Assembly (NCBI RefSeq): GCF_006540005.1
Contig: NZ_BJOC01000030.1
Location: forward strand, 1-64,000
Length of the DNA stretch: 64,000 nt
Reading direction: 5' to 3'
Source of the DNA: Halomonas halmophila
Lineage (GTDB): Bacteria > Pseudomonadota > Gammaproteobacteria > Pseudomonadales > Halomonadaceae
In this document: positions 23,143 to 37,595 of the stretch, piece after piece
Position numbering within the stretch: position 1 is the first letter of the stretch
Layout of the letters: every line of letters starts with the position of its first letter
Notes under the pieces: model-generated
Databases searched by the model: none
Told to the model about the DNA's origin: nothing
What the model saw: the letters and a program-made list of their open reading frames with translations, nothing else
Made by a program: the position numbers and the translations under genes

Positions 23143-23549
23143 TTACAGCACATCAATGAACTCCCGTAGCCTGTCAGCGGTGACGATCAGACCACAGGCG
23201 GCCAGGGTGTCGGTAGAGAAGTTCTTCAAGTTGAAAGTGACAATCAGTTGCGCCCCACTGCGAATCGCCGCTGCCAGTACATGCCGGTCATCGGGGTCGG
23301 GCAACTCAACCGCTGAGATCCACGGCTCATGCCCGGTGACCAGGGCATCCGGCACCGCACGATTCATCAACTCGACAGTTCGCGGTAGCGCCTCAGCCAG
23401 GTTCCGGGCGCTTGTGCAGTAGGTTGCGCGTCCACTCGGCGTGGACCTGTTCTGTCCAGCGCGCCGCATAGAGCCCCGAGGTGGCCAGTCGCATCAGCAG
23501 GTCCCGCAATGGCGCAGGGTAGAGCACGCACACGTGGTAGACGACCACA
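23143..23549 (-). pseudogene. PIN-domain toxin gene, frameshifted
   Basis: The N-terminal half reads VLYPAPLRDLLMRLATSGLY, then ARWTEQVHAEWTRNLLHKRP, in one frame from about 23549. The C-terminal half (RTVELMNRAVPDALVTG, LPDPDDRHVLAAAIRSGAQL, IVTFNLKNF) continues in the next frame to 23143. The break lies at 23402-23403, where a single extra T (A on the coding strand) would account for it. The usual first acidic residue before VLYPAP is also altered (YHVC). These are VapC-like RNases of toxin-antitoxin pairs; this copy should be inactive. No matching antitoxin gene is visible upstream. Confidence 0.8.
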
Positions 23550-23911: not shown

Positions 23912-24183
23912 GCCTGCCGATCCACTGGCGTGACGATGCCATTGCCGACCTGATTGAGCTGATCACCTAAATCGCCGAACGCGACCCCCAGGCCGCCCGG
24001 CAACTGCGCACCCGCATCGAGGCGGCCGTAGCGTCGGTGGCCGAACCCCCCTACCTGCACCAGGTCGGCCGCGTGCCCGGCACGCGAGAGATTGTTGCCC
24101 ACCCGAATTTCATCGTGGTCTACCAGGTGACGGATCGTATCGAGGTCACGTCCGTGGTCCACGCTCGCCAAAACTACCCCTGA
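23908..24183 (+). pseudogene. ParE/RelE toxin gene with internal stop codon
   Basis: The frame starts at the GTG overlapping the antitoxin stop and reads SLPIHWRDDAIADLIELIT, then TAA at 23968-23970. It continues without another stop as IAERDPQAARQLRTRIEA, EPPYLHQVGRVPGTREIVA, HPNFIVVYQVTDRIEVTSV and VHARQNYP, ending at 24183. This is a complete 91-codon ParE-fold protein with one nonsense codon at position 21, where related toxins commonly carry Tyr, so one TAC or TAT to TAA change would explain it. The toxin should not be made. Confidence 0.82.
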
Positions 24184-24203
24184 TCCCCGAGATTCAAGAT
24201 CGG

Positions 24204-24228
24204 CTGTCTCAATGGCAAAGTGCAACAT
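24204..24228. mobile_element. Solitary IS30-type terminal inverted repeat
   Basis: The stretch TGTCTCAATGGCAAAGTGCAACA closely matches GGTCTCAATGACCGAGTGCAACA at 41286-41308, which is followed there by the start of an IS30-type transposase. No transposase reading frame follows here, so only an end of the element remains, between the dead ParE gene and the 3' end of the amphi-Trp gene. Confidence 0.5.
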
Positions 24229-24292
24229 GTAACCATGGCCGCAAAGCCTGAGTGCGGCACCGTCAAAGCGTCATGGCTTGCTCCCGGCCCCG

Positions 24293-24568
24293 TCACCCGT
24301 CATGATTGATCTGCAGATTGGACTTCTTCGAGGCGCCGTTGCTGGCCTGCCAGGAGAGGCGGATGTCCAGCCGGTGGTAGTCGTCTTCCTTGCGTGCCGT
24401 GACCTTGAGGTGCAAAAGCCCCCTGGGTGCCAGGCGGATTTCGCCGTGGTCATCGGAGAAGGACAGCACGCCCTTGGCCAGCCCCTTGGTGATGGCCTTG
24501 AGGATGTCCTGGGCGCCCTTGATGCTCTGCAGGGATTCGTGCCGGAAGAGGTTCTTTTCGGTCTTCAT
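24293..24568 (-). CDS. Amphi-Trp domain protein of the GAK system
   Basis: A 91-residue protein with an N-terminal helix region (SLQSIKGAQDILKAITKGLA) and alternating beta strands carrying a Trp (LHLKVTARK, RLDIRLSWQASNG). I recognise this as the amphi-Trp domain, a small amphipathic strand-rich domain found beside HprK-related kinases and ATP-grasp enzymes in GAK cassettes. It may be a carrier or substrate protein; that is inference. Its ATG overlaps the stop of the metallophosphoesterase gene in ATGA. A second, truncated copy of its 3' end lies at 22992-23075. Confidence 0.75.
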   Translation of the reverse strand: MKTEKNLFRHESLQSIKGAQDILKAITKGLAKGVLSFSDDHGEIRLAPRGLLHLKVTARKEDDYHRLDIRLSWQASNGASKKSNLQINHDG

Positions 24569-26004
24569 GACGATGCAGCCTTTGACTTGGGGGACGACGC
24601 CCGTGAGGTGGCGGCGGCGAGGTCGTGCGCCGGGTCGAAGACCCTGGCATGCGGGTAATCATTGCTGATGCCGATCACCTGCCCCGCCGGGTGAATGATG
24701 GTAGCGCCCATGCCCGAGCCCGCCAGGCCTTCCTTGCGCCGTGAGTGGCGATCCAGGGTGATATCGCCGTCGAGGTGCAGCATGCCGGAGCGCATCCGCC
24801 ACTGCTGGCCGCGGGTGAGGTTGATGTGGCCATGCACCACCACCTGCAGGCCCTGCTCGTGCAGGCGCGCCATCCCGGGTTCGGTCAGGGGAAAGTCGAC
24901 CGAGCGATACTTGGTGCGCAGGGTGTTGGCCAGGGCGCCGTAATAGAAGCCACAAGGGTCCTCGACCACGGCCCTGTCGAAACGCCGGTTGAGCCCCGCC
25001 ACGCCCTCCGCGGCGATGATCCCGGCGACCTCGTCATCGAGTCCGGCATGCACGAACAGAAAAGCGCCTTCGCGATGGGCCAGGCACATGCGCTGGAAGA
25101 ACCAGGCGAACTCGCCCTTGGGATGCAGAAAGAGCTCGCGCAGCTTGAGGGCGGCCGCGTAGACCTGACGCAGCGACAGGCCAGCCTTGTCGCAGGCGGC
25201 TTCGAAGTGGCCGACCTTCTTGCGCAGGCGGGCCAGCTCCTTGTCGATGGCCCCTTCGGGCATGACGCTCTCGGCCTGCGCCGGAAAGGTCTCGAACCAG
25301 GAGTCGCGGGGGAACAGACGACGCCGGCAGACCTTGTTCGAGGGAATCCCGGAAAGCGCGTTGGCCCGGTCGTCCAGGTACTCGGCATGGACCTCCTGCA
25401 GCAAGGGGATGACCTTGTGGCCCATGCGCACGAAAAGGTGTTCGGTGCGCGGCGAGCGTAGCCGTTCCAGCGCCATCAGGCCCATCAGCAGCCGCATGTC
25501 GTGGTTGCCGGCGAGCAGGGTGACCCGGGCACCGCTGTCGATGAGTTGCTGCAGGCTGCGCAGCATGGCCAGGTTGCTGGGCCCCTTGTCGAGGCAGTCG
25601 CCGCCGATGATGAAGCGCCCCTTGCGGCCCGGCCTGGTCAGTGTGAAGTCGCCGAGGCCGGGGCCGCTCTTGCTGACACCGCCGCTGGCCACCAGCGAGG
25701 CCTCGAAGGCTTCGGCGTCGGCATGCGGATCGGAGATAAAGAAGACGCGCCGCGCCGGCCAGCTCGCGGCGTTGCCGGCCAGGGCCTGCTGGAGGCGACC
25801 CGGCGCGTCATCGGGCGTCCAGACCTCCGCCCGGGTCGGCAGGGCATGCGGCAGCCAGTCGGCCCCCTGGTAGCGCGGCAGATGCCGTGACAGCCGGCGC
25901 GTGGCAGCGGACGCTGCCTTCTTGCCGCCCCTTTTGCCCGCCTTCTTGTCGACCTTGCGGTCAGCCTTGTGGTCGGCCTTCTTGCTGGCTTTGCCTTTCG
26001 CCAT
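24565..26004 (-). CDS. Metallophosphoesterase of the GAK cluster
   Basis: A calcineurin-like phosphoesterase of 479 residues. The metal-site motifs are FISDPHADAEAF, GGDCLDKGP, AGNHDMRLL and VVVHGHINLT, variants of DxH, GDxxDRG, GNHD and GHxH. The first 40 residues are extremely Lys-rich (KGKASKKADHKADRKVDKK), perhaps for binding nucleic acid or acidic lipid. The ATG at 26004 is preferred; the in-frame upstream part reaching 26055 is not conserved-looking. The substrate is unknown. It is translationally coupled to the amphi-Trp gene and lies 92 bases after the histidine phosphatase gene. Confidence 0.82.
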   Translation of the reverse strand: MAKGKASKKADHKADRKVDKKAGKRGGKKAASAATRRLSRHLPRYQGADWLPHALPTRAEVWTPDDAPGRLQQALAGNAASWPARRVFFISDPHADAEAFEASLVASGGVSKSGPGLGDFTLTRPGRKGRFIIGGDCLDKGPSNLAMLRSLQQLIDSGARVTLLAGNHDMRLLMGLMALERLRSPRTEHLFVRMGHKVIPLLQEVHAEYLDDRANALSGIPSNKVCRRRLFPRDSWFETFPAQAESVMPEGAIDKELARLRKKVGHFEAACDKAGLSLRQVYAAALKLRELFLHPKGEFAWFFQRMCLAHREGAFLFVHAGLDDEVAGIIAAEGVAGLNRRFDRAVVEDPCGFYYGALANTLRTKYRSVDFPLTEPGMARLHEQGLQVVVHGHINLTRGQQWRMRSGMLHLDGDITLDRHSRRKEGLAGSGMGATIIHPAGQVIGISNDYPHARVFDPAHDLAAATSRASSPKSKAASS

Positions 26005-26096
26005 GCGCGGGCTCCGGAAAACGCGAAATGGGTCCAACCGAGCAGCGTATTGCAACCGGATGACGAGGCCATGACAGTCACCCCGGGGTGCGCGAC

Positions 26097-26804
26097 TCAG
26101 TCGGCGTGAGCGTCGTCACGCTGGCGTACCTTCCAGTGGCCGGCGATGTGACGCCAGCCGCCATCCGCCAGGCGCTCCACCAGCACCGGGCTGGCGTGAT
26201 GCATGCTCAGGCGGGGAATATCTTCGGCCGCCAGCACGCCGAGATGATGGGCGGCATGACGAAAGGCCGCGCCATGGCCGACGAACAGCTTGACGCTATC
26301 CATTGATGCCTCCTCGGCCAGGGCCTGCATGCGGGTCTCGAGGTGTCGGGCGACGCGTTCGCCGGCCGTCATCAGGGACTCGGCGCCCGGCAGCGGCAGG
26401 CAGAAATGCGGATTCGATTTCCAGTCCTCCGGCAACTCCCCGCAGCGCGGATCGGCGGCCACGACCCGGCGGATCTGTTCGGCGCTCAGATTGGCGGCCG
26501 TGCCCAGGCCGCGTTCGGCCAGTGCCATGAAGCTCTCGACCCGCAGGCCGGGAGACGCCGTGGCCAGGCCGTCACGCAGGTAGCCGGCCGTCTGCCAGGC
26601 ACGCAGCAGTGCTGAGCTGTCCACCACCTCGGCCAGCTGCCAGCCTTCCGCCTGGAGCAACTCGTAGAGCATCCGACAGGCCGCACGCGCCTGGCGCCGG
26701 CCGAGCTCGGTCAGCGGGAAGGGCTGATGAGCGCTGGGCGTGTCCGGCAACTGCTGGTAGTCACCATGCCGGATCAGCGCCGCAATGGTGCGTGGCGACG
26801 TCAT
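26097..26804 (-). CDS. Histidine phosphatase superfamily protein
   Basis: A 235-residue phosphatase of the phosphoglycerate mutase-like fold. It has the phosphorylated-His motif ALIRHGDYQQ at about residue 12, PLTELGRRQAR, and the second catalytic His in FVGHGAAFRHAAHH. It starts in an ATGA overlap with the SixA-Nudix fusion gene upstream. The cluster therefore holds two separate phosphohistidine-type phosphatases. Its natural substrate cannot be inferred; context suggests removal of phosphate added by one of the cluster kinases. Confidence 0.85.
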   Translation of the reverse strand: MTSPRTIAALIRHGDYQQLPDTPSAHQPFPLTELGRRQARAACRMLYELLQAEGWQLAEVVDSSALLRAWQTAGYLRDGLATASPGLRVESFMALAERGLGTAANLSAEQIRRVVAADPRCGELPEDWKSNPHFCLPLPGAESLMTAGERVARHLETRMQALAEEASMDSVKLFVGHGAAFRHAAHHLGVLAAEDIPRLSMHHASPVLVERLADGGWRHIAGHWKVRQRDDAHAD

Positions 26805-27778
26805 GCCGGCCCCTCGGCCTGCAGGCGTTCGATCAGCGAGCGCAGCTCGACCACCAGCGAAGGCTGTTCGAGGTGCTCGGTGGCCGCTGCGGCGGGCAGC
26901 CAGCGCCGCGTTCGCTGGGGCTCCTCGCGGTGCTGCTCGGGCAGCTGGTCATCGACGCGCATGGCGAACAGCGTCACCCCACAGCGGGCGCCCCACTTGG
27001 CATGCGGGTAATGGCCGGGCGTCACCTCGGCGATCTCGCCGCTGATGCCGGCTTCCTCGCGGGCCTCCTTGAGGGCCGATTGCGCCGCGCTCAGGCCGGG
27101 CTCGACGATGCCCTTGGGCAGGCTCCAGTGGCGATTGCTGCTGGAGCCGATCAACAGCACCTCGAGCTGGCCATCACGCCAGCGAAACGGCATCACGGCT
27201 GACTGGGTGTAGTAGTAGGCCGGCCGCGGACGCCGTTCGATGCCGTCGGGCGTGGCGAAGACGAAACCTTCGGGCAGGGTCTTGGCCCGCTGCACTTCCA
27301 GCAAGCGGGCGTTGCCGGCGGTCAGGGACGACCAGCTGCCCTCCACCGCCAGCCGCACCAGGGTGGCGGTGGGCAGGCGCTTGCCGTCGTCGCCCTCGGG
27401 CAGCGGGTCGGGCAGCAGCCAGTCGGCGAACTCTTCCAGTGCCGGATTGTGGCCCACCACCATCAGCCGCTCGACCTCGTCGCCACTGGCGGCAACCAGG
27501 CGCGCCAGCTCCTCCGCATCGGCCTCGTAGAGGCTGGGCTCGAGTGTCACCTCGGCTGCCGTGCGGCCCATGGCCTTGGCACACTTCTCGGCGGTGGCTC
27601 GCGCCCGCTCGGCCGGCGAACTGAGTATGCGTTGGGGCACAAGCTCATACTCGGCCAGCCAGTCGCCGATGCGCTGGGCACCGAGCTTGCCGCGCTTTTT
27701 CAGCGGACGCTGGAAATCACTGACGGGCTTCGACCAGTCGGACTTGCCGTGGCGCAGGAGGAGGAGTTCTCGGGTCAT
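26801..27778 (-). CDS. SixA-like histidine phosphatase fused to a Nudix domain
   Basis: A 325-residue two-domain protein. Residues 1-150 are SixA-like (LLLLRHGKSDWS, SSPAERARATAEK, VVGHNPALEEF). Residues 180-325 are a Nudix hydrolase (SAVMPFRWRDGQLEVLLIGS, HWSLPKGIVEPGLSAAQSA, then KEAREEAGI). The Nudix box keeps the second Glu pair but has Lys for the usual Arg and Leu for the first Glu. Mycobacterial MutT1 combines the same two domains in the opposite order, so the pairing is chemically sensible, for example for diphospho compounds. Both ends overlap neighbouring genes by four bases. Confidence 0.85.
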   Translation of the reverse strand: MTRELLLLRHGKSDWSKPVSDFQRPLKKRGKLGAQRIGDWLAEYELVPQRILSSPAERARATAEKCAKAMGRTAAEVTLEPSLYEADAEELARLVAASGDEVERLMVVGHNPALEEFADWLLPDPLPEGDDGKRLPTATLVRLAVEGSWSSLTAGNARLLEVQRAKTLPEGFVFATPDGIERRPRPAYYYTQSAVMPFRWRDGQLEVLLIGSSSNRHWSLPKGIVEPGLSAAQSALKEAREEAGISGEIAEVTPGHYPHAKWGARCGVTLFAMRVDDQLPEQHREEPQRTRRWLPAAAATEHLEQPSLVVELRSLIERLQAEGPA

Positions 27779-28890
27779 GCCGGGCGCTCCATCAAGGGCT
27801 TGAGATGATCTTCGACGAGGGCGGCAAAATCGACGCCACCCCTGACAGCGTAGACGGGTGTCGTCGCAAGCAGGTCCTGATAGGGCTCGGCATTGAGCGT
27901 CTCGCCATCGGCCTGAAAGCTGCCATCCGGTGCCTGATAGAAGGGCCCCGGCGACTTCATGACGGCGGCCAGCAGCTCGGGGTGCTGCCGCGGGTCGATG
28001 CGCCTCATGGTCAGCGGCTGCGCCGCGTCGCGCTGCCAGTCGAGGATGACCAGGGCCCCCAGCGGCGCCCGCGAGACGCTGCGCTCCGGGCCGTAGATAT
28101 CAGACACGGGCACATCGTACTTCTCCTCCAGCGACCACAGCTCGGCGCTGGACAGCGTCCGCAGGGCCGCCCGACGCGCCTCCGGCAACAGCTCCACCAG
28201 GCGGGGGTTGTGCAAGGCGGTGCCGGGGTTGATGCGCGGCTGCTTGGGCACGCCCGCGGCCTGCAGGGCCTCGCCCTGGCGCTTGAGGAAGAGCCGGTCA
28301 TTGGTCAGAAAGCGCGCCCCGGGGATGTCCATGGCGTGCAGCATGGCGGTCGACTTGCCGCCGCCGGAGAAGCCGGCGATGGCCACCGCCCCACCGGCGC
28401 CGACCAGCGCGGCGGCATGACAGACCTGCCAGCCACGCTGCTGAAGATGGTTCATGGTCTGGGCGAGGATGAAGTTGATCACCTGGTTGTCATGCGCCAG
28501 GCAGGGGCCGGCGGCCATGCGTTGATCGGCACTCTGCAAAAAGACCAGGCCGGTGCGCACCTTGCGCACCAGTCGCCCGCCCGGCAGGTCATGATAGCTG
28601 TCCTTGCGCCCCTGCTTGCCGGGCTCCCGAGACCAGTCGATGAAGTCGACCGCCAGGGCCGGCGGCGCCCCCTCGATGATCTCGAGGTCGAGACACTCCG
28701 GCGGGGCCTCGGCGGCGTCACACCGGCAGTGCGCGAAGTACTCGCCCAGGCGCTCGAGCATGGCCGGCGAATTGCTGCGCAGGCGCAGGCTGCAGTCGCC
28801 CATGGCCAGCACCAGCGGCGCCTCGAGCAGGCGCGCCTCGCCACGCAGTATCTCGGCATATCCCGCCGGGCAGGCGTTCGGCACGCTCAT
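27775..28890 (-). CDS. HprK-related kinase B (GAK system)
   Basis: A 371-residue protein with a P-loop AIAGFSGGGKSTAML near residue 185, followed by RFLTNDRLFL. This is the arrangement of HPr kinase/phosphorylase-related proteins. The N-terminal 150 residues are a family-specific domain. I recognise it as the HprK-related kinase of GAK cassettes. It presumably phosphorylates a small molecule or protein; the target is unknown, and no HPr or PTS gene occurs nearby. Start and stop overlap the ATP-grasp and SixA-Nudix genes by four bases each. Confidence 0.82.
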   Translation of the reverse strand: MSVPNACPAGYAEILRGEARLLEAPLVLAMGDCSLRLRSNSPAMLERLGEYFAHCRCDAAEAPPECLDLEIIEGAPPALAVDFIDWSREPGKQGRKDSYHDLPGGRLVRKVRTGLVFLQSADQRMAAGPCLAHDNQVINFILAQTMNHLQQRGWQVCHAAALVGAGGAVAIAGFSGGGKSTAMLHAMDIPGARFLTNDRLFLKRQGEALQAAGVPKQPRINPGTALHNPRLVELLPEARRAALRTLSSAELWSLEEKYDVPVSDIYGPERSVSRAPLGALVILDWQRDAAQPLTMRRIDPRQHPELLAAVMKSPGPFYQAPDGSFQADGETLNAEPYQDLLATTPVYAVRGGVDFAALVEDHLKPLMERPA

Positions 28891-29774
28891 AGCTGGCTCA
28901 GCACGTGGTCGAGGTAGGCGCCGGCGGCATCGATGCCCGCCCCCTCCAGGGCGCCACGGAAGCCGCCGAAGGCCGAGACCTCGAAGACGATCGGGCCGTC
29001 GGGCGTCTCCGCCACGTCCACGGTGGTGAAGTCCAGTCCGAACGGCGCCTGGGCGCGGGTGGCCAGGTCGATGAGCGAGGCGTCCGGGGTAAAGGCCTCA
29101 TAGCGGCCCCCGCTGTGGATGGTGGTATTCCAGCTCGCGCCATCCTGTGGCACCCGCGCATAGGTGCCGAGGTAGTGACCACCGACAAACACCATGCCCA
29201 GATCGCGACCGGGCAGTTCCACCCGGCGCTGCAGGTAGAGCATAGGATTGTCGCGCTGAAAGGCCGCCACTTCGGCCCGCAGCATCTCCTCGGGCTGGTC
29301 CGCGGAGATCACGCCCATGCCGCGCGCCTTGGTCGAGAACAACGGCTTGAACACCGCCTCGCCATAGCGCTGTACGGCGCGGCAGGCGCTATCGAGATCC
29401 TCGGTGATCAGCGTCTCGGGCATGGGGATGCCGGCCTGGTGCAGCGTCAGGGTGCCATCCAGGCGATTGATCAGGCCGCGCATCTTCTCGGGCCCGCTGA
29501 ACACGCGCACGCCGCGCGCCTCGGCCATGCGCAGCAGCTCCAGGCGATCCAGCGTCGCCGGGCTGTACTCGGCGCTGATCTTCTTGACGATCAGCGCATC
29601 CAGCTCGCCGATGTCGCGGCCGTCATGCTCGAGACGGCCGCTGGCCAGGTCGAGGCTGACACGCTGCAGGTCGATCACCGCGCGAAAGCCGGTGCGCTGC
29701 TCGATGGCATCGGCCAGCACTTCCGTGGACCACTTTCCGGGGATACCGACCACACCGATCCTGGGGTTAGTCAA
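28887..29774 (-). CDS. ATP-grasp enzyme of the GAK system
   Basis: A 295-residue RimK-like ATP-grasp protein. Visible features are the N-terminal RIGVVGIPGKWSTEVLADAI, the lid region NRLDGTLTLHQAGIPMPETL, AVFKPLFSTKARGMGV for ATP binding, and DFTTVDVAETPDGPIVFEVS for metal binding. ATP-grasp enzymes form acid-amine or acid-thiol bonds through acyl phosphates. The start is TTG at 29774, supported by a perfect AAGGAG eight bases upstream and by an 8-base overlap with the previous stop (TTGACTAA). The partner substrate is unknown. Confidence 0.85.
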   Translation of the reverse strand: MTNPRIGVVGIPGKWSTEVLADAIEQRTGFRAVIDLQRVSLDLASGRLEHDGRDIGELDALIVKKISAEYSPATLDRLELLRMAEARGVRVFSGPEKMRGLINRLDGTLTLHQAGIPMPETLITEDLDSACRAVQRYGEAVFKPLFSTKARGMGVISADQPEEMLRAEVAAFQRDNPMLYLQRRVELPGRDLGMVFVGGHYLGTYARVPQDGASWNTTIHSGGRYEAFTPDASLIDLATRAQAPFGLDFTTVDVAETPDGPIVFEVSAFGGFRGALEGAGIDAAGAYLDHVLSQL

Positions 29775-31407
29775 CGAAAATCTCCTTCAGGGGCAGTCGG
29801 AAACGGTCCGCCTTGTCGAGGTCGGCCGCCAGGACCCGCTCGAGCAGATAGCGGGCACGCAGGAACATGGCATTGGCCAGTGACGGGTCGAGGATGAAAC
29901 GCGTCGAGGTGGCGAAGGAACGCGCCAGCCCCAGCGCCAGCCGCAGCTCGAAGGTGGTGTCGCCCTGGCTGACGGCGTAGCGACGCGCCACGCGATAGAA
30001 CTCCCGGGCCAGGCCCATGATGCGCTGACGCAGCGGGACATCGCGGATCTGCAGGCGGTAGTTGGAGACCATGAACACCGAGACATCCTGCACGTAATCC
30101 ATGTAGCTGGAGCGATGCAGATCGATGAAGTTGATGCGTCGCTCCAGGGGGTCATAGATGATGTTGTCGACGTTGAAATCGCCGTGAATATACACCGAAA
30201 ACGGCGCCGGCAAGTCGGCTTCCCGGCGCCTGGCACGCGCCACCAGGTCATCGAAGGCCAGCAGCTCGACCCCGCACAGCGAGGCGCCACTGTTCCTGAA
30301 TTCCGGGTGAATCTTGTAGACCTCGTCGAGGCGCTTCTCGAGCTGCTGCATGTAGCCCGCCGCCACCGACTGGGCGGTCCAGGTCTCGCGCCATACCGAC
30401 TTGAGAGTCCGGGTCAGGCGCTGGAGGGCGTCATCGAGCAGCTCGGGTGACTCATTGAGGAGGATGTTCTCGAAGGTCAGCCCCGGCAGATGCTCGATGA
30501 GCAGGGCCGCGGACTGCCCGCGTTTCCTGTAGGAGAGAATCTTCGGCGCCAGGCCCGGGTAGATCTCGTGCCAGCTCTCGACGCCCTGGCGCTCTTCCTT
30601 GACCTTGCGCTTCAGGCCGTCCTTGAAGACCGCCACATAGTCGTCGTCATCGCCGTTCGAGATGCCCGAGATACGGCTGCCGGAACGCGTCTCGGCAATG
30701 GGCGCCAGGCTGAGTTCATCGCCCTCGCCCGCCGCCAGCTCCTCGACCAGCGACTGAAGGGAATAGTACCGCTCGAAGTTCACCGACTGGCCGAGGTTGG
30801 CCGAGATGATGACTTCACTGAGGTGGCGCAGCACGTCGCCCATCTGCTGGCTGATCTGGGCCACGAACAGCGCCCGCGTCAGGTCCTCGGTGTTGTTGTC
30901 GGGCTTCTTGAGAGCCGCCACGCCCTCGTCGATGCGCTTGCGGGCCCGTTTCTGCAGCTTCTCCTGCAGACGCCCGACTTCCAGGGCACGCTGGGTGTCG
31001 CTGTCGAGCAGGGCCGTCTCGACCTGGCCGATGCCCGAGCGCACCAGCTCGATCATGGCGTCGAAGGCGGCCGGCGACAGCGCCGACAGGTCGTCGACAC
31101 CGCCGAGCTGACGGATACTGGCGCGGCCAAGCTCGGTCAGACGGTCGAGATCGGTGGCCACCATCTCCAGGCTGCGCAGGACGCGGCGCCGGGCCTCGCC
31201 GGTCTTCTTGCGCGACAGCAGGCGCACGCACTCGGCGTGAATGCGCATCTTGAGATTGCGCGCATAGCCATCGCGATCAGACACGCGCCGAGCAATGGCC
31301 GCGCTCGGAGCTTCCAGGAAGGCCTGCAGATTGGCCAGTTGCGAGTCGACCTCGACACACAGGAAACGCAGGTTGTCCTGCAGGCCTTCAGGAAGTCGCG
31401 AGGTCAT
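29767..31407 (-). CDS. PhoU-like domain fused to an aminoglycoside-phosphotransferase-like kinase
   Basis: A 546-residue protein. Residues 1-215 are helical and PhoU-like (VEVDSQLANLQAFLEA, LEMVATDLDRLTELGRASIR, FVAQISQQMGDVLRHLSEV). Residues 260-546 are an APH-type kinase with the catalytic loop YIHGDFNVDNIIYDPL and the metal Asp in INFIDLHRSSYMDYV. The ATG at 31407 is chosen over longer frames because the preceding residues are antisense-like; it overlaps the Nudix stop by 20 bases. A phosphate-signalling domain joined to a small-molecule kinase is unusual. The substrate is unknown. Confidence 0.82.
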   Translation of the reverse strand: MTSRLPEGLQDNLRFLCVEVDSQLANLQAFLEAPSAAIARRVSDRDGYARNLKMRIHAECVRLLSRKKTGEARRRVLRSLEMVATDLDRLTELGRASIRQLGGVDDLSALSPAAFDAMIELVRSGIGQVETALLDSDTQRALEVGRLQEKLQKRARKRIDEGVAALKKPDNNTEDLTRALFVAQISQQMGDVLRHLSEVIISANLGQSVNFERYYSLQSLVEELAAGEGDELSLAPIAETRSGSRISGISNGDDDDYVAVFKDGLKRKVKEERQGVESWHEIYPGLAPKILSYRKRGQSAALLIEHLPGLTFENILLNESPELLDDALQRLTRTLKSVWRETWTAQSVAAGYMQQLEKRLDEVYKIHPEFRNSGASLCGVELLAFDDLVARARRREADLPAPFSVYIHGDFNVDNIIYDPLERRINFIDLHRSSYMDYVQDVSVFMVSNYRLQIRDVPLRQRIMGLAREFYRVARRYAVSQGDTTFELRLALGLARSFATSTRFILDPSLANAMFLRARYLLERVLAADLDKADRFRLPLKEIFVD

Positions 31408-31882
31408 GAAACTCGCCCATGTAGAGTGGCCCGCTCGGGGCCGCGGAAGAGATCCCGGACGCCAGCACCTCCGGCAACACCTCGCCCAGATAGGCCGGCG
31501 AGAAGCGACAGTCCGGCAGCGACGCCACCGGCAGCCAGGCGACACCGGTCTGGCGCTTGTCGGGACTGGGGCCGTTGTGCGGCACATAGTCGGCCGCTAC
31601 CCGACAGCGGAACAGGAAGTCCACCTGGTGGCGCCGGGTGGGCGGGTCGCTCTGCTTGAGCTTGAAATAATCGCTGACGCGCAGCAGCTCGGGGGCCAAC
31701 ACCTCGCAGCCGATTTCCTCGCGACATTCGCGCTGCAGGGCCTCGAGCAGGGTTTCACCGGTCTCCTGGCCACCGCCCGGCAGGGCATGGAGGCCGCCCT
31801 GCTTGTGCAACAGCAGTAGATGCGAGTCGCGCACAATCAACGCCCTGGCCGCATTGCGCACGCCGGGGATCAGCTCGGCCAT
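31388..31882 (-). CDS. Nudix hydrolase
   Basis: A 164-residue single-domain Nudix protein. The box is complete: GGGQETGETLLEALQRE followed by CREEIG. The N-terminal strand NAARALIVRDSHLLLLHKQG and HQVDFLFRCRV are typical. It is the first gene of the minus-strand GAK operon and overlaps the next gene by 20 bases. Nudix proteins cleave nucleoside diphosphates linked to another group; the actual substrate is unknown. It is divergent from the CofD-like gene across a 158-base shared promoter region. Confidence 0.88.
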   Translation of the reverse strand: MAELIPGVRNAARALIVRDSHLLLLHKQGGLHALPGGGQETGETLLEALQRECREEIGCEVLAPELLRVSDYFKLKQSDPPTRRHQVDFLFRCRVAADYVPHNGPSPDKRQTGVAWLPVASLPDCRFSPAYLGEVLPEVLASGISSAAPSGPLYMGEFHDLATS

Positions 31883-32040
31883 ACTCGGGTCACTCGAACT
31901 TCAGCGGGACCTCCAGCATGCCACATTTCAGATGACATTTGCGTTAAGACCGGCAGCGGCCGGGAGCCGACAAGGGCGACAAGCCCAGCCAAAACAGGCA
32001 CTCTATTCGCCAGGAGACGATCAAGAGAAGGGTCGATGGC

Positions 32041-33234
32041 ATGACCAACATCCGCGTCACCCGCACCGCGCAGATTCCCGATCCACTGCGGGTTCAGCGC
32101 TATCAGAAGGCCCCCGAGCTGGGCCCGCCGCTTCTCTTCTTCAGCGGCGGTTCGGCGCTCAACGGCCTGTCCCGTCGCCTGCAGCATTACACGCACAATT
32201 CGATCCATCTGGTCACGCCCTTCGATTCCGGCGGCAGCTCGGCCAAGCTGCGCGAGGCCTTCGCCATGCCGGCCATCGGCGACCTGCGCAGCCGGCTGAT
32301 GGCGCTGGCCGATGACTCCATACTGGGGCACCCGGAAGTCTACCGGCTGTTCACCCATCGGCTGTCCGCGGAGGCCAGCCAGGCCACGCTGCTGGCCACC
32401 CTGGACGAGCTGATTGCCGGCCGCCATTCACTGGCGGCGGACATCCCCAACCCCATGCGGCGGTTGATCTGCAATCAGCTCGGCTTCTTCCGCGAGGCCA
32501 TGCCCGAGGACTTCGACCTGCGTGGCGCCAGCATCGGCAACCTGATCCTGGCCGGCGGCTACCTGAACAACCATCAGCAGCTCGACCAGATCATCTTCCT
32601 GTTCTCCAAGCTGGTGCATGTGCGCGGCACGGTGCGCGCCGTGGTCAACAAGGACTATCACCTGGCGGTCACCCTCGCGGATGGTCGCCGGGTGGTCGGC
32701 CAGCACCGCATCACCGGCAAGGAAGTCGCCCCCTTGAGCTCCCCCATCGCCCACCTGGCGCTCTCCGCCAGCCGCGATGAATTCGTGCCCGTCAGCGCCG
32801 GCCTGCGCAAGAAGAACCGCCGTCTGATCGCCTCCGCGGAGCTGATCTGCTACCCGCCGGGCAGCTTCTACTCCAGCCTGCTGGCCAACCTGCTGCCGGA
32901 GGGCGTCGGCCGGGCCGTGCATGCCAACCCCTGCCCCAAGGTCTTCATCCCCAACTCGAGCCCCGACCCGGAATTGACCGGCATCGACCTGGCGCAGCAG
33001 ATCACCATCCTGCTCGACACCCTGCGCCGCGATGTCGGCGCGGACTGTCCGGCCCATGAACTGCTGGACTTCGTGCTCCTCGACAGCCGCCACGGCGACT
33101 ACACCGGCTCGCTGTCCGCTGATTTCGTCGAGTCGCTGGGCATCACCCTGATCGACACCCGGCTGGTCAAGGACGCCTCGGCCTCGCGCTACGACCCGGA
33201 CCTGCTGGCGACCGCCCTGCTGTCGCTGGTCTGA
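32041..33234 (+). CDS. CofD-like protein of the GAK system
   Basis: A 397-residue relative of the CofD/YvcK family (2-phospho-L-lactate transferase and gluconeogenesis factor). The N-terminal LLFFSGGSALNGLSRRLQHY, TPFDSGGSSAKLREAF and GDLRSRLMALAD reproduce the family nucleotide-binding start. Near the middle it has GNLILAGGYLNN, and later PPGSFYSSLLANLLPEG. It matches the CofD-like component of GAK cassettes. It is the only plus-strand member of the locus and is divergent from the Nudix gene. It could transfer a phospho group from a nucleotide-activated donor, which is inference. Confidence 0.82.
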   Translation: MTNIRVTRTAQIPDPLRVQRYQKAPELGPPLLFFSGGSALNGLSRRLQHYTHNSIHLVTPFDSGGSSAKLREAFAMPAIGDLRSRLMALADDSILGHPEVYRLFTHRLSAEASQATLLATLDELIAGRHSLAADIPNPMRRLICNQLGFFREAMPEDFDLRGASIGNLILAGGYLNNHQQLDQIIFLFSKLVHVRGTVRAVVNKDYHLAVTLADGRRVVGQHRITGKEVAPLSSPIAHLALSASRDEFVPVSAGLRKKNRRLIASAELICYPPGSFYSSLLANLLPEGVGRAVHANPCPKVFIPNSSPDPELTGIDLAQQITILLDTLRRDVGADCPAHELLDFVLLDSRHGDYTGSLSADFVESLGITLIDTRLVKDASASRYDPDLLATALLSLV

Positions 33235-33306
33235 GAGGCCGGCGGTCCCGCGACCGGCTCCGCTCTGTTACGCTCGCCCTGTGTTCAAGAGCGGATAGCA
33301 GACGTC

Positions 33307-34056
33307 ATGGCAGGCAACTCCAGCAAGCGGCGCCCCTATCAGGTGGCGGAGACCATCAAGGACTGGATCGTCGAGCAGCAGCTCAAGCCCGGCGACCGTC
33401 TGCCCGGCGAGGCAGAACTGATGGCACAACTCGGGGTATCGAAGGGCACGGTGCGCGAGAGCACCCGCGTGCTGGAGGCCCAGGGGCTGGTGAAAACGCG
33501 CACCGGCCCCGGCGGCGGCGCCTTCGTGAGCGCCATGAGCGAGTCCCGGGCCATCTCGCTGATGAGCCATTACCTGTTCTTCCAGGACATCTCGATCCAC
33601 GACATCTACCAGATTCGCCTGGCCCTGGAGCCGGGGCTCGCGGCCTCGCTGGCGGGTCGTGTCGGCGCGGATGACATGGCACGCCTGCGCGCCAGCCTGC
33701 ACAGTTATGCTCACACGGCCTGTGATGCCGAAGAGGAGCGCCAGCAGCACATCGACTCGCTGGACTTTCACCTCATGCTGGCCGAACTATCCGGCGGCAA
33801 TCCGCTGCTGAGCTTCATCATCCGCTTCACCACCCAGATCCTCTCGGACCTGACGATCTATCGTCGCCTCTACGAGCCGGCCACCCATGACCTGGGCACG
33901 ACCGGCTGCCGCTACCACGCCGATATCCTCGACGCTATCGAGGCCGGTGATGCCGAGCAGGCCCGGCGCATCATGCACGAGCACCTGGAATCGGCGTTGA
34001 CGGTCATGAACCGCCAGGAGGCGCAGGTGCGTAGAGGGTTTCTGTCAGAAGCTTAA
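33307..34056 (+). CDS. FadR-type GntR family regulator
   Basis: A 249-residue regulator. The N-terminal winged HTH shows QVAETIKDWIVEQQLKPGDR, LPGEAELMAQLGVSKGTVRE and TRTGPGGGAFV. The C-terminal FCD ligand domain has metal-site His residues (HLMLAELSG and HADILDAIEAGD, then HEHLESAL). It is followed by a convergent cluster of amidohydrolase, DUF1028 and YfcC transporter genes, which it probably controls. A 16-base palindrome before the transporter gene (37596-37611) is a candidate site. Confidence 0.9.
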   Translation: MAGNSSKRRPYQVAETIKDWIVEQQLKPGDRLPGEAELMAQLGVSKGTVRESTRVLEAQGLVKTRTGPGGGAFVSAMSESRAISLMSHYLFFQDISIHDIYQIRLALEPGLAASLAGRVGADDMARLRASLHSYAHTACDAEEERQQHIDSLDFHLMLAELSGGNPLLSFIIRFTTQILSDLTIYRRLYEPATHDLGTTGCRYHADILDAIEAGDAEQARRIMHEHLESALTVMNRQEAQVRRGFLSEA

Positions 34057-34080: not shown

Positions 34081-35328
34081 TCAAACTCGTTCGCGCATGC
34101 CCTGCAGGAAGGCCATGATGACGCGCGTCGCGGCATCGGCGTCATCGGCGGTGATCGCCTCGTCGGGGTGGTGGCTGAGGCCGTCGCGGCAACGCACGAA
34201 CAACATGCCGATATCGGTCAGGTCGTGCATCGCCAGGCCATCATGCCCGGCGCCGCTGAACAGGCGCTCGGCCGGTTGGCCGCAGGCGGCGCTCGCCGCT
34301 TCCAGGGCCTCGATCATCCAGTCCGCGCAATCCACCGCCTCGGCGCTGTAGGTCTGCTCCAGGTCGAGCGCCAGCCCACGCTGCTCGGCGATCCCGGTGA
34401 ACGTGGATAACAGGCGATCGCGGCCGGCCTTGCGGACCTCGGGATCGGGAGAGCGCAGCTCCAGGGTGAAGGTCACCTCGGCGGGGATGACATTGACCGC
34501 ATTGGGTCGCACCTCGAGCTTGCCAACCACGCCGACCAGGTCATCGGTGGCGTTGAGCACTCGGTCGGCCTCCACCACCATGGCCGAGGCACCGACCAGC
34601 GCATCGCGACGGCCCGGCATGGGCGTGGTGCCGGCATGCCCGGCCTTGCCGGTGAGCGTGACGCGATGACGCTCGATGCCGGTCAACGCGGTGACCACGC
34701 CCACGGCATGATCACGCTGCTCGAGTACCGGCCCCTGCTCGATATGCACCTCGCAGAAACCCAGCACCCGCTCGGGGTCCCGGGCCAGGGCCGGGATGGC
34801 ATCGGGGTTACCGCCGAAATCGCGCAGCGCCTCGGCCAGGCTCACGCCCTCGGCATCCGTGGCCTGTAGACTCTGGGCGTCCAGAGTGCCGGCCAGGGCG
34901 CGGCTGCCGATCAGCGTCGACTGGAAGCGTGTACCCTCCTCGTCGCCGAAGGCCACGACCTGAACGCCATAGGGCAGCTCGATCCCCTGCTCGCGCAGCG
35001 CCTTGAGTGCCATCAGCGGCAGGGCCACGCCCAGCATGCCATCGTACTTGCCGCCCTCGACGACCGTGTCCTGGTGGGAACCCAGAATCAGCGTCGGCTC
35101 ACCGGCCGCTGCCCGCGGGCAACTGCCTACCAGGGTGCCGGCGGCATCCAGCTCGGGTTCCAGGCCGGCCTCGCGCATCCAGCCGCGGATCAACTCGAGT
35201 ACCGCCTGATGCTCCCGGCTGCAGAACAGCCGGGTCACGCCCGGCCCGGGCAGGGAGTGTTCGCCGGCGGCATCCAGCCAGGCCAGCAGCTCATGCCCCA
35301 GTCGGGCATCTTGCTCATGCATCGACAT
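34081..35328 (-). CDS. Zn-dependent M20 amidohydrolase (allantoate/N-carbamoyl amino acid hydrolase type)
   Basis: A 415-residue member of the AllC/HyuC branch of M20 metallopeptidases. It shows ILGSHQDTVVEGGKYDGMLG with the metal His and Asp, FGDEEGTRFQSTLIGSRALAG with the catalytic Glu, VHIEQGPVLE, the dimerisation segment GKAGHAGTTPMPGRRDA, and the C-terminal SGAGHDG metal His. Members hydrolyse N-carbamoyl-L-amino acids, allantoate or ureidoglycolate; this sequence does not decide between them. The ATG at 35328 has GGAG at good distance, and two neighbouring ATGs are alternatives. Confidence 0.88.
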   Translation of the reverse strand: MSMHEQDARLGHELLAWLDAAGEHSLPGPGVTRLFCSREHQAVLELIRGWMREAGLEPELDAAGTLVGSCPRAAAGEPTLILGSHQDTVVEGGKYDGMLGVALPLMALKALREQGIELPYGVQVVAFGDEEGTRFQSTLIGSRALAGTLDAQSLQATDAEGVSLAEALRDFGGNPDAIPALARDPERVLGFCEVHIEQGPVLEQRDHAVGVVTALTGIERHRVTLTGKAGHAGTTPMPGRRDALVGASAMVVEADRVLNATDDLVGVVGKLEVRPNAVNVIPAEVTFTLELRSPDPEVRKAGRDRLLSTFTGIAEQRGLALDLEQTYSAEAVDCADWMIEALEAASAACGQPAERLFSGAGHDGLAMHDLTDIGMLFVRCRDGLSHHPDEAITADDADAATRVIMAFLQGMRERV

Positions 35329-35403
35329 CATCATCTCCAGACCGGGCCCCGGCCATCGGCGGGGCGCGGCAAGCATTGTCGTGATACCGGCGGCGAGCCG
35401 ACA

Positions 35404-36108
35404 TCAGTGGTGAGGCAGGGAGCCCAGGAAGGCCTGAAAATCCGCGGCCTCGACGCGCCCGGCCAGAGCACGCATCTCGGCCACCGGATCGACATCGGCC
35501 CAGTCCAGGCGCAGGTCGATCGGCGCCGTGTGGAATGACTCGATGCGCAGGGCCACCGAGCGACAGCCGCGGACATCGCCGCCGGCGGCCAGCCCGGCCT
35601 CCAGGGCATCGATCAGGGCGCCGAGCAGGGCGCTGTCGTGGTGGTCTCGAAACACCGGGGAACGGCCTTCGGCCAGCACCGCCTGCGGGTCATCACAGGT
35701 CGCGACCAGAAACGCCTCGACCATGGCCCCGGCCACGCGATCATTGGCCAGCATGTTGCCGGCCGCCGCCACACCCGGGTAAAGCGCGGCGGACAGGGCC
35801 GGCTGGTTGGCCGTGCCGGTGTGCAGTTCCGCCCGGCCGGAGGCCTCCATCACCAGGCACTGGCGTCTGGCGGCATCGGCATCCGCCGCGGTGACATCGT
35901 CCAGCACCTGCCGAGCGCTCAGACCGCCCTCGAGCCCCCGTCGGATGGTTTCCGGATACCAGGGGTTGGTGGCCAGCCCCTGGGTGGCACAGGCCCCGAT
36001 GCCCCGCCAGCAGTGGTTGACGTAGCCGCCCACCGCCACACTCCCGGTGGCGGCGAGACAGGCGGAGGTCCCGGTCTCGGGGTTCAGGTGCACCAGCGAT
36101 AGCGTCAT
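35404..36108 (-). CDS. DUF1028 family protein
   Basis: A 234-residue protein of the DUF1028 family, Ntn-hydrolase-like by fold prediction in the literature and without a fixed function. It shows the family features ATGSVAVGGYVNHCWRGIG, QGLATNPWYPETIRRGLEGG, AAGNMLANDRVAGAMVEAF and PVFRDHHDSALLGAL. It starts three bases after the transporter stop and ends 75 bases before the amidohydrolase start. DUF1028 genes often accompany amidohydrolases and transporters for amino-acid derivatives. Confidence 0.85.
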   Translation of the reverse strand: MTLSLVHLNPETGTSACLAATGSVAVGGYVNHCWRGIGACATQGLATNPWYPETIRRGLEGGLSARQVLDDVTAADADAARRQCLVMEASGRAELHTGTANQPALSAALYPGVAAAGNMLANDRVAGAMVEAFLVATCDDPQAVLAEGRSPVFRDHHDSALLGALIDALEAGLAAGGDVRGCRSVALRIESFHTAPIDLRLDWADVDPVAEMRALAGRVEAADFQAFLGSLPHH

Positions 36109-36110
36109 GC

Positions 36111-37499
36111 TCAATAGCCCACCAGATGGCCGATGATCAGACCACCCCAGCACAGCAGGTAGACCATGGCCATAAACGGCATGATGGCCTTGAGCCACTG
36201 CGCATAGGACACCCGCCCCAGGGCCAGCATGGCCAGGGTCCCGCCGGAAGTCGGCACGATCAGGTTGGTCAGGCCGTCACCCACCTGGAAAGCGGTGATC
36301 ATCAGCTGGCGGCTCATGCCCACCAGGTCGGCCACCGGTATCAGGATCGGCATGGTCACCAGTGCCTGACCGGAACCGGACGGCACGAAGAGGTTGATCA
36401 CGCCCTGGACGACACTCGCCATGACCGCGGCGAACATGATCGGGATGCCCTCGATCAGGCCGCTCAAGGAGTTGACGATGGTGTCGATGATCTGCGCCTG
36501 CTCGAGGATCACCTGGATCGACGCCGCGACCCCGATGACCAGCGCCCCGGCGGTAACACCGGCCGCGCCTTCCATCATCTGCTTGACGATGCCGTTGGCA
36601 CCGAGGCCATTGATGGCACCGATGACAATCGCCAGCAGCAGGAAGATGCCGGCGATCTCGTTGATGTACCAGCCGGCCATGAAGACACCGAACAGCATGG
36701 CCACCAGACCACCGACGAAGACGCCCAGGGTCAGCCAGTCGCGACGGCTCATGCGATAGTCACTGAGGTGCTTGCTGAGCGTTTCGGCATGCGGCGACTC
36801 TTCGAAGTCCATGCGCGTGACCCGCTTGCAGATGTACAGCGACAGGAGCGCCAGCGAGGTGACCACCATCAGGGTACGCAACCAGGCGCCGGAAAAGGTC
36901 GGCAACTCGGCAATGCCCTGGGCCACGCCCACGGTATAGGGGTTGATCGGTGACAGCGCGAAGCCGACGCCGATACCACCGACGGCCATGGCCGTGCCCA
37001 CCAGGCTCGAGCAGCCGATGGCACTGGCGATCAGCACGGCGATCGGCACCAGGGCAATGTTGTTCTCGAAACCCACGGCAACGCCGAAGAAGCCGTAGAT
37101 GAAGGTGCCCACGGTGATGATCAGGTTACGTCGTTCGACGCCGACGCGGCGCACCGCCACACCGATGGCATTCTCCAGCGCCCCGCTCTTCTGCAGGATA
37201 TGGAAGAGCCCACCGGCGATGAAGACGATGAACAGATACTGCGAGGCCGAGATCAGCCCCTTGGGAATGGCCACGAAGATATCGAAGGGATGGATCGGCG
37301 CCACATCCTTCAGATAGTGGAAGGAACCCGGCACCACGGTGGTACGGCCATCGCGCATCACGCGCTCGAACTCGCCGGCCGGAATGAAGAAGGTCAGCAC
37401 ATAGGTGGCGACCAGGATCAGGAAGATCAGCACCATGGGGTCGGGGACCGTCCGGTACCACGGTTTGCGCGCCTGCTGCGCCTGGGCTTGCTGGTTCAT
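36111..37499 (-). CDS. YfcC family carboxylate/amino acid permease
   Basis: A 462-residue inner-membrane transporter of the YfcC group (related to AbgT and DcuC families), with about 12 hydrophobic segments. It starts KPWYRTVPDPMVLIFLILV, and FFIPAGEFERV plus the repeated half-signatures GVINLFVPSGSGQALVTMP and GDGLTNLIVPTSGGT are typical. It probably imports the amide or carbamoyl substrate of the two downstream enzymes, but this is inferred from position. It is the first gene of the operon YfcC-DUF1028-amidohydrolase. Confidence 0.88.
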   Translation of the reverse strand: MNQQAQAQQARKPWYRTVPDPMVLIFLILVATYVLTFFIPAGEFERVMRDGRTTVVPGSFHYLKDVAPIHPFDIFVAIPKGLISASQYLFIVFIAGGLFHILQKSGALENAIGVAVRRVGVERRNLIITVGTFIYGFFGVAVGFENNIALVPIAVLIASAIGCSSLVGTAMAVGGIGVGFALSPINPYTVGVAQGIAELPTFSGAWLRTLMVVTSLALLSLYICKRVTRMDFEESPHAETLSKHLSDYRMSRRDWLTLGVFVGGLVAMLFGVFMAGWYINEIAGIFLLLAIVIGAINGLGANGIVKQMMEGAAGVTAGALVIGVAASIQVILEQAQIIDTIVNSLSGLIEGIPIMFAAVMASVVQGVINLFVPSGSGQALVTMPILIPVADLVGMSRQLMITAFQVGDGLTNLIVPTSGGTLAMLALGRVSYAQWLKAIMPFMAMVYLLCWGGLIIGHLVGY

Positions 37500-37595
37500 G
37501 ACGTTGTCCTTGTTATAAGTCAGACAGGGGACGAATGACCGGCCGCGGGCGCGACAGCCCTCAGGCAAGCCGCAAGGCGACCGGCACCCGGTTCA

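Follow-up and report, generated by a model that had tools for sequence, protein, structure and literature searches.

The 64,000 nucleotides from Halomonas halmophila analysed here (contig NZ_BJOC01000030.1, positions 1 to 64,000; hereafter the window) contain, at positions 24293 to 33234, a nine-gene locus of the type named GAK at NCBI; this enzyme module is real and conserved, and the literature searched offers no description of it. All nine reading frames are free of internal stops; eight of them form an operon on the minus strand and the ninth, a CofD-like gene, is divergent. The operon begins with a stand-alone Nudix hydrolase (31388..31882; 164 aa, full Nudix box, PF00293), followed by a fusion of a PhoU domain with an APH-type kinase (PhoU-APH; 29767..31407, with an ATG start at 31407; 546 aa, PF01636 and PF01895 over cut-off), a GAK ATP-grasp enzyme of the RimK/LysX/MptN class (28887..29774; 295 aa, TTG start, TIGR04356) and HprK-related kinase B, a member of the phosphoenolpyruvate carboxykinase (PEPCK)/HprK superfamily (HprK_B; 27775..28890; 371 aa, TIGR04355). 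Further along are a SixA-like phosphatase-Nudix fusion (SixA-Nudix; 26801..27778; 325 aa, His_Phos_1 and NUDIX over cut-off), a branch 1 histidine phosphatase (HisP; 26097..26804; 235 aa, PF00300), a calcineurin-like metallophosphoesterase (MPE; 24565..26004; 479 aa from an internal ATG at 26004, PF00149 over cut-off) and the amphi-Trp protein (24293..24568; 91 aa with an N-terminal F-R-H-E-S-L-Q motif, TIGR04354 over cut-off). The divergent gene on the plus strand (32041..33234; 397 aa, TIGR04357) encodes the GAK CofD-like protein, which is nearest to GlmR/YvcK. The layout described in a first-pass annotation of this DNA, eight minus-strand genes with overlaps of 4-20 bases and one 92-base gap plus a divergent CofD-like gene, was confirmed to the base: neighbouring operon genes overlap by 4, 4, 4, 4, 8 and 20 bases, and the single gap of 92 bases lies directly upstream of the MPE start codon. 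The 158 bases between the operon and the CofD-like gene (31883..32040) presumably hold the promoters of both; a search for a sigma-70-like site across 24000-33500 found none.

The four proteins that had been named as GAK components all exceed the curated NCBIfam cut-offs. The amphi-Trp protein scores 58.8 bits against TIGR04354 (cut-off 31), the kinase 323 bits against HprK_rel_B (TIGR04355; 200), the ATP-grasp enzyme 436 bits against grasp_GAK (TIGR04356; 300) and the CofD-like protein 543 bits against CofD_rel_GAK (TIGR04357; 340); the locus is therefore a GAK system. For the HprK-, ATP-grasp- and CofD-like proteins, these models also outscored families with known pathways. Pfam domains over cut-off are APH, PhoU, NUDIX and His_Phos_1 (the last two in two proteins each), Metallophos, RimK and CofD; the amphi-Trp protein scores 24.3 against Amphi-Trp (PF20068), slightly below the cut-off of 27, and for HprK_B Pfam gave no match. 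Solved structures match each half of PhoU-APH (PhoU and APH, respectively); this protein carries the motifs HGDFNxDN and IDLHR, and its match to TIGR02135 (E 5e-10) lies below the equivalog cut-off. The proposed SixA domain holds as a histidine phosphatase domain, with a His_Phos_1 match and retained catalytic His residues, while its score against TIGR00249 (63.6 bits) misses the cut-off of 74.5, so that “SixA-like” is the safer name. The MPE has the motifs D-x-H, GD, GNHD, VHAG and GHxH, which are kept in its relatives and by which we take it to be ApaH/PPP-like. The XXXCH protein (TIGR04358), presumably a partner associated with the GAK system and taken here as optional, was over cut-off in none of 27 genomes, with two weak sub-threshold matches, in a search that had no positive control. 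In the open-licence full text of PubMed Central, no paper was found on the GAK system, the amphi-Trp protein, the HprK-related kinase or the model names, none mentioned at least four of six part names jointly, and the one search aimed at the PhoU-APH fusion found no description of it.

Residue conservation was counted in alignments of relatives. HisP retains R12, H13, R68 and H177 in 49 of 49 sequences and HprK_B retains H158, K179, S180 and D198 in the same number (49/49); the Glu triad of the stand-alone Nudix protein is present in 42/42, and both PhoU-APH motifs in 55/56, the remaining sequence being at a contig end. Seven of eight MPE positions are kept in 57 or 58 of 58 sequences, and the eighth, a His, in 52, with Gln in the other six. 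The two SixA-like His residues are found in 47/50 and 50/50, and the catalytic Glu triad of SixA-Nudix in all 47 relatives having the Nudix domain; the first Glu of this Nudix box is Leu in the window and Leu, Tyr or Met in those 47. Nearly all catalytic residues are thus kept, and the phosphate-handling proteins have therefore been selected as enzymes.

Conservation of the GAK core

The survey covers Pseudomonadota. CofD loci are the best 80 of 511 relatives of the CofD-like protein, taken from named genome records; to these we added three plasmids and 16 stretches that surround ATP-grasp matches, taken from genomes in which the CofD locus had no ATP-grasp gene (one of the stretches, L142, carried just a RimK-like relative). 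From these sources we compiled 44 loci that contain the ATP-grasp gene and have flanks of at least 6 kb in one direction and at least 2.7 kb in the other; all others were dropped and related strains were counted separately. PhoU-APH, the ATP-grasp enzyme and HprK_B are each present in 44/44 loci, HisP and MPE in 43 each and the amphi-Trp protein in 42; these six families make up the GAK core. SixA-Nudix (36/44) and the stand-alone Nudix protein (30/44) vary, as does linkage to the CofD-like gene (30/44). The expectation that the phosphatase and Nudix genes co-occur with the named GAK components in other genomes is borne out by these counts. The term “extended” in the first-pass annotation is misleading, however, because PhoU-APH, HisP and MPE, which it counted as added, belong to the core; SixA-Nudix and Nudix are accessory.

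The exact eight-gene order of the window is found in 22 of the 44 loci. Rearranged loci (L037, L081 and L096) retain most of the gene content, and in L219 all nine families form one same-strand cluster in a different order. Twelve of the 15 operon loci without CofD have all eight operon genes in order; of the other three, the first is truncated by a contig end, the second is missing Nudix and the third both HisP and MPE. Adjacent and co-inherited genes of this set occur in other genera, in another class and in other orders; such recurrence is therefore more than chance. The core is also present on alphaproteobacterial (Rhodobacterales) plasmids from Qingshengfaniella, Pseudooceanicola and Tritonibacter (L143, L144, L145 and L222), in whose records these genes carry the GAK annotation. 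The two Tritonibacter stretches have no CofD-like gene annotated. A contig labelled as a metagenome-assembled genome of a Halobacteria archaeon (L065) carries a gammaproteobacterial-type GAK locus with a CofD identity of 62%, and its archaeal label is probably a binning error.

The CofD-like gene is also often found apart from the operon. The ATP-grasp gene was over cut-off in 28 of 40 CofD-bearing genomes, and neither an ATP-grasp nor an HprK_B match was found in 11 of the 40, in a search in which both positive controls for HprK_B were recovered. In three Halomonas genomes without either match (L023, L028 and L039), CofD adjoins a SixA-like gene that has no Nudix half, which hints at a possible second, two-gene module. 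Within the genus, six of 25 genomes, including that of the window, have a CofD match over cut-off, and the closest CofD relative among those listed is from Halomonas almeriensis (92% identity). On the left, the locus is flanked by a short minus-strand PIN-domain frame (PIN_3; 23143-23469) that matches the end of its model only and is perhaps a truncated toxin gene, and on the right by a single minus-strand run of an M20-type peptidase, a DUF1028 protein and a DcuC-type carrier (34081-37568).

Relatives of the individual proteins

HprK_B belongs to the HprK/PEPCK superfamily by its fold and by its P-loop, His and Asp. Its structure model (pLDDT, the predicted local distance difference test, 92) aligns with PEPCK over the whole length (Z 16.5, root-mean-square deviation 4.5, 302 residues), and its kinase domain aligns with HprK (Z 14.8, root-mean-square deviation 2.6, 139 residues), while sequence identity to these proteins is only 9 to 20%. 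In a profile alignment with the PEPCK of the window's own genome, the His, P-loop and Asp regions superpose, at a probability of 32%. HprK_B as a canonical HprK was considered and rejected: neither it nor any protein of the window's genome matches the HprK sequence family PF07475, and canonical HprK is a separate gene, with PF07475 over cut-off in four of 21 genomes searched. Either a protein or a small molecule may be the substrate. In lasso-peptide clusters, HprK homologues are described as phosphorylating Ser, with some of them polyphosphorylating (PMC8498205, in part).

Apart from one other ATP-grasp protein, the eleven solved relatives found for the ATP-grasp enzyme are amino-acid ligases of the RimK/LysX type, and an inositol-kinase-type enzyme was rejected on these relatives. 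By sequence, RimK/LysX/MptN ligases are the best solved relatives; the best match to a characterised family is MptN (138 bits, below cut-off), and CofF matches weakly (21 bits). In RimK-class enzymes an Asp, a Glu and an Asn are metal ligands. The GAK enzyme retains the Lys, Asp and Glu. Where the RimK and LysX sequences compared have the Asn that ends an EVN motif (ELN in one), however, 52 of 53 GAK sequences carry Ser, and the remaining one is truncated.

The closest solved relatives of the CofD-like protein are not CofD proper (2-phospho-L-lactate transferase) but the UPF0052/YvcK-type structures 2ppv, 2o2z and 2hzb, and the YvcK model fits best; the Pfam CofD family is shared by both groups. 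The GGSS loop of GlmR/YvcK and the Asn of a later motif align with the GAK protein. In GlmR, which is reported to be a uridyltransferase making UDP-N-acetylglucosamine, the catalytic residues D40-D41 and N198 were mutated together (PMC10128056, in part); the aspartate pair corresponds to D-S in the CofD-like protein and N198 to the aligned Asn.

The AlphaFold model of the amphi-Trp protein (pLDDT 86) has one helix and four strands after the N-terminal motif. In searches of the PDB, Foldseek gave nothing below E 0.001 and VIA a single match, at Z 2.1; on this basis we do not claim a new fold. Among 57 GAK-locus sequences (the window's own excluded, related duplicates kept), Phe8 and Trp73 are invariant, His10 and Ser12 are kept in 55 each and Gln14 in 53. 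Amphi-Trp proteins were found in 21 of 398 genomes of the phylum: 12 adjoin an MPE gene, one is on a short contig and has the motif, and the remaining eight, all without the F-x-H-x-S motif, show no GAK gene in the surrounding 1.5 kb or so. Amphi-Trp proteins that lack both this motif and a GAK gene nearby (L158 and L160-L166) are of two other kinds, and Haloferax volcanii, a control, also gave an amphi-Trp match.

Phosphate-related neighbours and a proposed role

Genes that recur around these loci outside the nine families encode CNNM/CorC transporters, a Na/Pi symporter with PhoU, a CHAD protein, Usp, a CitMHS-type permease, PhoU fused to a phosphatase domain and a PstS-like binding protein. 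We defined Na/Pi, CHAD, the PhoU fusion, PstS, PstC/A and Ppx as the phosphate and polyphosphate set. Such genes are present at 24 of the 80 CofD loci (14/39 operon-linked and 10/41 unlinked) and at none of 40 control stretches, which were drawn from 13 of the 40 CofD-bearing genomes (Fisher p 2e-5); CNNM is found near 18 of the 80. The side and the order of the phosphate genes vary between lineages, and in another class of the phylum (L214) a Na/Pi symporter adjoins the first operon gene. CHAD domains, which are described as binding polyphosphate (PMC6537752, in part), are encoded in all eight genomes of the class draw with a CofD_GAK match (the window's included, one match being below cut-off) versus 112 of 361 others. 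At L038, L045, L053, L057 and L065 the CHAD protein is followed by a ParA-like ATPase; further along, all of these but L053 also have genes for a PstS-like and a PhoU-type protein.

We tentatively propose that GAK is a module for reversible phosphorylation under PhoU control and that it adjusts the handling of phosphate or polyphosphate. This is a reading from sequence that we regard as quite possible, if somewhat short of probable. A role in phosphate handling is suggested because two kinases, phosphatases and a PhoU domain occur together and because phosphate-uptake genes adjoin the locus in several lineages. The PhoU domain would read the state of phosphate or of its transporter and gate the APH-type kinase of the same chain, and the PEPCK/HprK-type kinase would put a further phosphoryl group on the same compound or on its protein-bound form. 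Where present, the GlmR-like CofD protein might make a nucleotide-activated or diphosphate form, while the RimK-class ATP-grasp enzyme could attach an amino acid, probably Glu, to the compound or to a protein. HisP and MPE would strip phosphates, SixA-Nudix and Nudix would cut diphosphates, and the amphi-Trp protein may be the carrier or the effector. The gating by PhoU and its sense, the substrate or target, the order of reactions and the roles of the ligase and the amphi-Trp protein are what we infer here, starting from the observed gene set, gene order, conservation, active-site residues, most families and folds, and phosphate neighbours at some loci. Two invariant kinases, one of them tied to PhoU, set against two near-invariant monoester phosphatases would be the anatomy of a two-step phosphorylation and its reversal, and a GlmR-like protein would be able to make a nucleotide-diphosphate bond, the kind of bond that a Nudix enzyme cleaves. 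The proposal is supported by the six-gene core, present in 42 to 44 of the 44 loci and retained through rearrangement.

Several observations weigh against this proposal. CHAD is about as frequent in genomes with CofD but no ATP-grasp gene (10/11) as in those with it (25/28), phosphate or polyphosphate genes occur at only one of the 15 split operons, and weak CNNM relatives were found in two of the 40 controls. The neighbour families were picked after clustering had shown them, related symbionts supply many of the loci, and four of the 24 positive loci, in related symbionts, rely on a Ppx gene some 8 to 9 kb away. The metal-ligand change in the ATP-grasp enzyme may have altered or abolished its ligase reaction. 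The window's own locus has no phosphate gene among the neighbours examined and no Pho box: no Pho-box-like site in 31883..32040 was better than in shuffles (p 0.9). Of 45 intergenic stretches, seven had such sites with a shuffle p of 0.025 or less, a weak signal because the p values are uncorrected and either strand was allowed. The first-pass view of the system as phosphate-centred therefore draws on neighbours in other lineages and gains nothing from the window's surroundings.

Biosynthesis of an F420-like or another phosphodiester cofactor, in which a kinase makes a phospho-acid, the CofD-like protein performs the transfer and the ATP-grasp enzyme adds Glu, would account for the sub-threshold MptN and weak CofF matches, for membership in the CofD superfamily and for the PEPCK-like architecture of HprK_B, which suits a small-molecule substrate. 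Yet the CofD-like protein is closer to GlmR/YvcK than to CofD, which weakens an F420 route, CofD is absent from 14 of the 44 operon loci, and so many phosphatases are unexplained in a biosynthetic operon; we consider this route rather unlikely. Somewhat less likely again is that the amphi-Trp protein is an HPr-like phosphocarrier, with HprK_B phosphorylating Ser12 and SixA dephosphorylating His10. HprK acts on HPr. The F-x-H-x-S motif is typical of GAK-linked amphi-Trp proteins and is found in none of the eight without a GAK gene nearby, and SixA is described as acting on NPr (PMC7948535, in part). On the other hand, two related genomes (L148/L212 and L151/L213) have Ala in place of Ser12 together with an HprK_B whose P-loop and Asp motif are intact, L151 and L095 have Tyr in place of His10, and His10 is kept in L212 and L217, where the stretch shows no SixA gene, so that it does not track SixA; the model of one helix and four strands, with no significant PDB match, is a further point against a carrier of this type. 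As sites of HprK and SixA, Ser12 and His10 thus failed these simple tests, although we keep the idea as a rival. The cycle of modification on the amphi-Trp protein suggested by the first-pass annotation finds no support in these variants (two of 57 at each position).

House-cleaning of damaged or unusual nucleotides, as by mycobacterial MutT1 (Nudix plus histidine phosphatase), appears improbable. A Nudix enzyme, a metallophosphoesterase and a histidine phosphatase could form such a chain, and SixA-Nudix matches the MutT1 model at 33 bits, a weak score against its cut-off of 475; it is, however, the Nudix genes that vary (30 and 36 of 44 loci), while the two kinases and the ATP-grasp enzyme are invariant. 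The patchy occurrence in the genus (6/25 genomes) and the Rhodobacterales plasmids might also bring an anti-phage defence system to mind. We regard this as very improbable: eight of the nine proteins have no PADLOC match, the ninth has one that covers the Nudix box, and GAK is a large multi-enzyme operon that often adjoins phosphate genes.

Comparison with known systems

Inositol-pyrophosphate signalling in eukaryotes is described as serving phosphate homeostasis with enzymes of the ATP-grasp, histidine phosphatase and Nudix types. By analogy, GAK might be its bacterial counterpart, in which a PhoU-sensed pair of kinases would make a diphosphate messenger or protein mark in two steps, HisP, the metallophosphatase and Nudix enzymes would dismantle it, and phosphate uptake and polyphosphate stores would be the output. 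We see this as distinctly unlikely, less so than nucleotide house-cleaning; the enzyme types are shared only by analogy, the GAK ATP-grasp enzyme is RimK-class and no inositol compound is implicated.

If GAK is a PhoU-controlled phosphorylation module, PhoU, which as a regulator has no enzyme activity itself, would gain a direct enzymatic output. GAK genes in marine and symbiotic bacteria are annotated by name without function, and the definition of the core, together with its tie to phosphate genes, yields a testable claim on phosphate sensing and storage in these bacteria. The closest known system is the GAK system of NCBI itself (TIGR04354-TIGR04357), whose models give names to four of the window's proteins without a function, whereas PhoU-APH, HisP and MPE emerge as core members from this analysis. 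The module is ordinary in being a GAK system as named by NCBI; its unusual features are the PhoU-kinase at its core and its association with phosphate genes.

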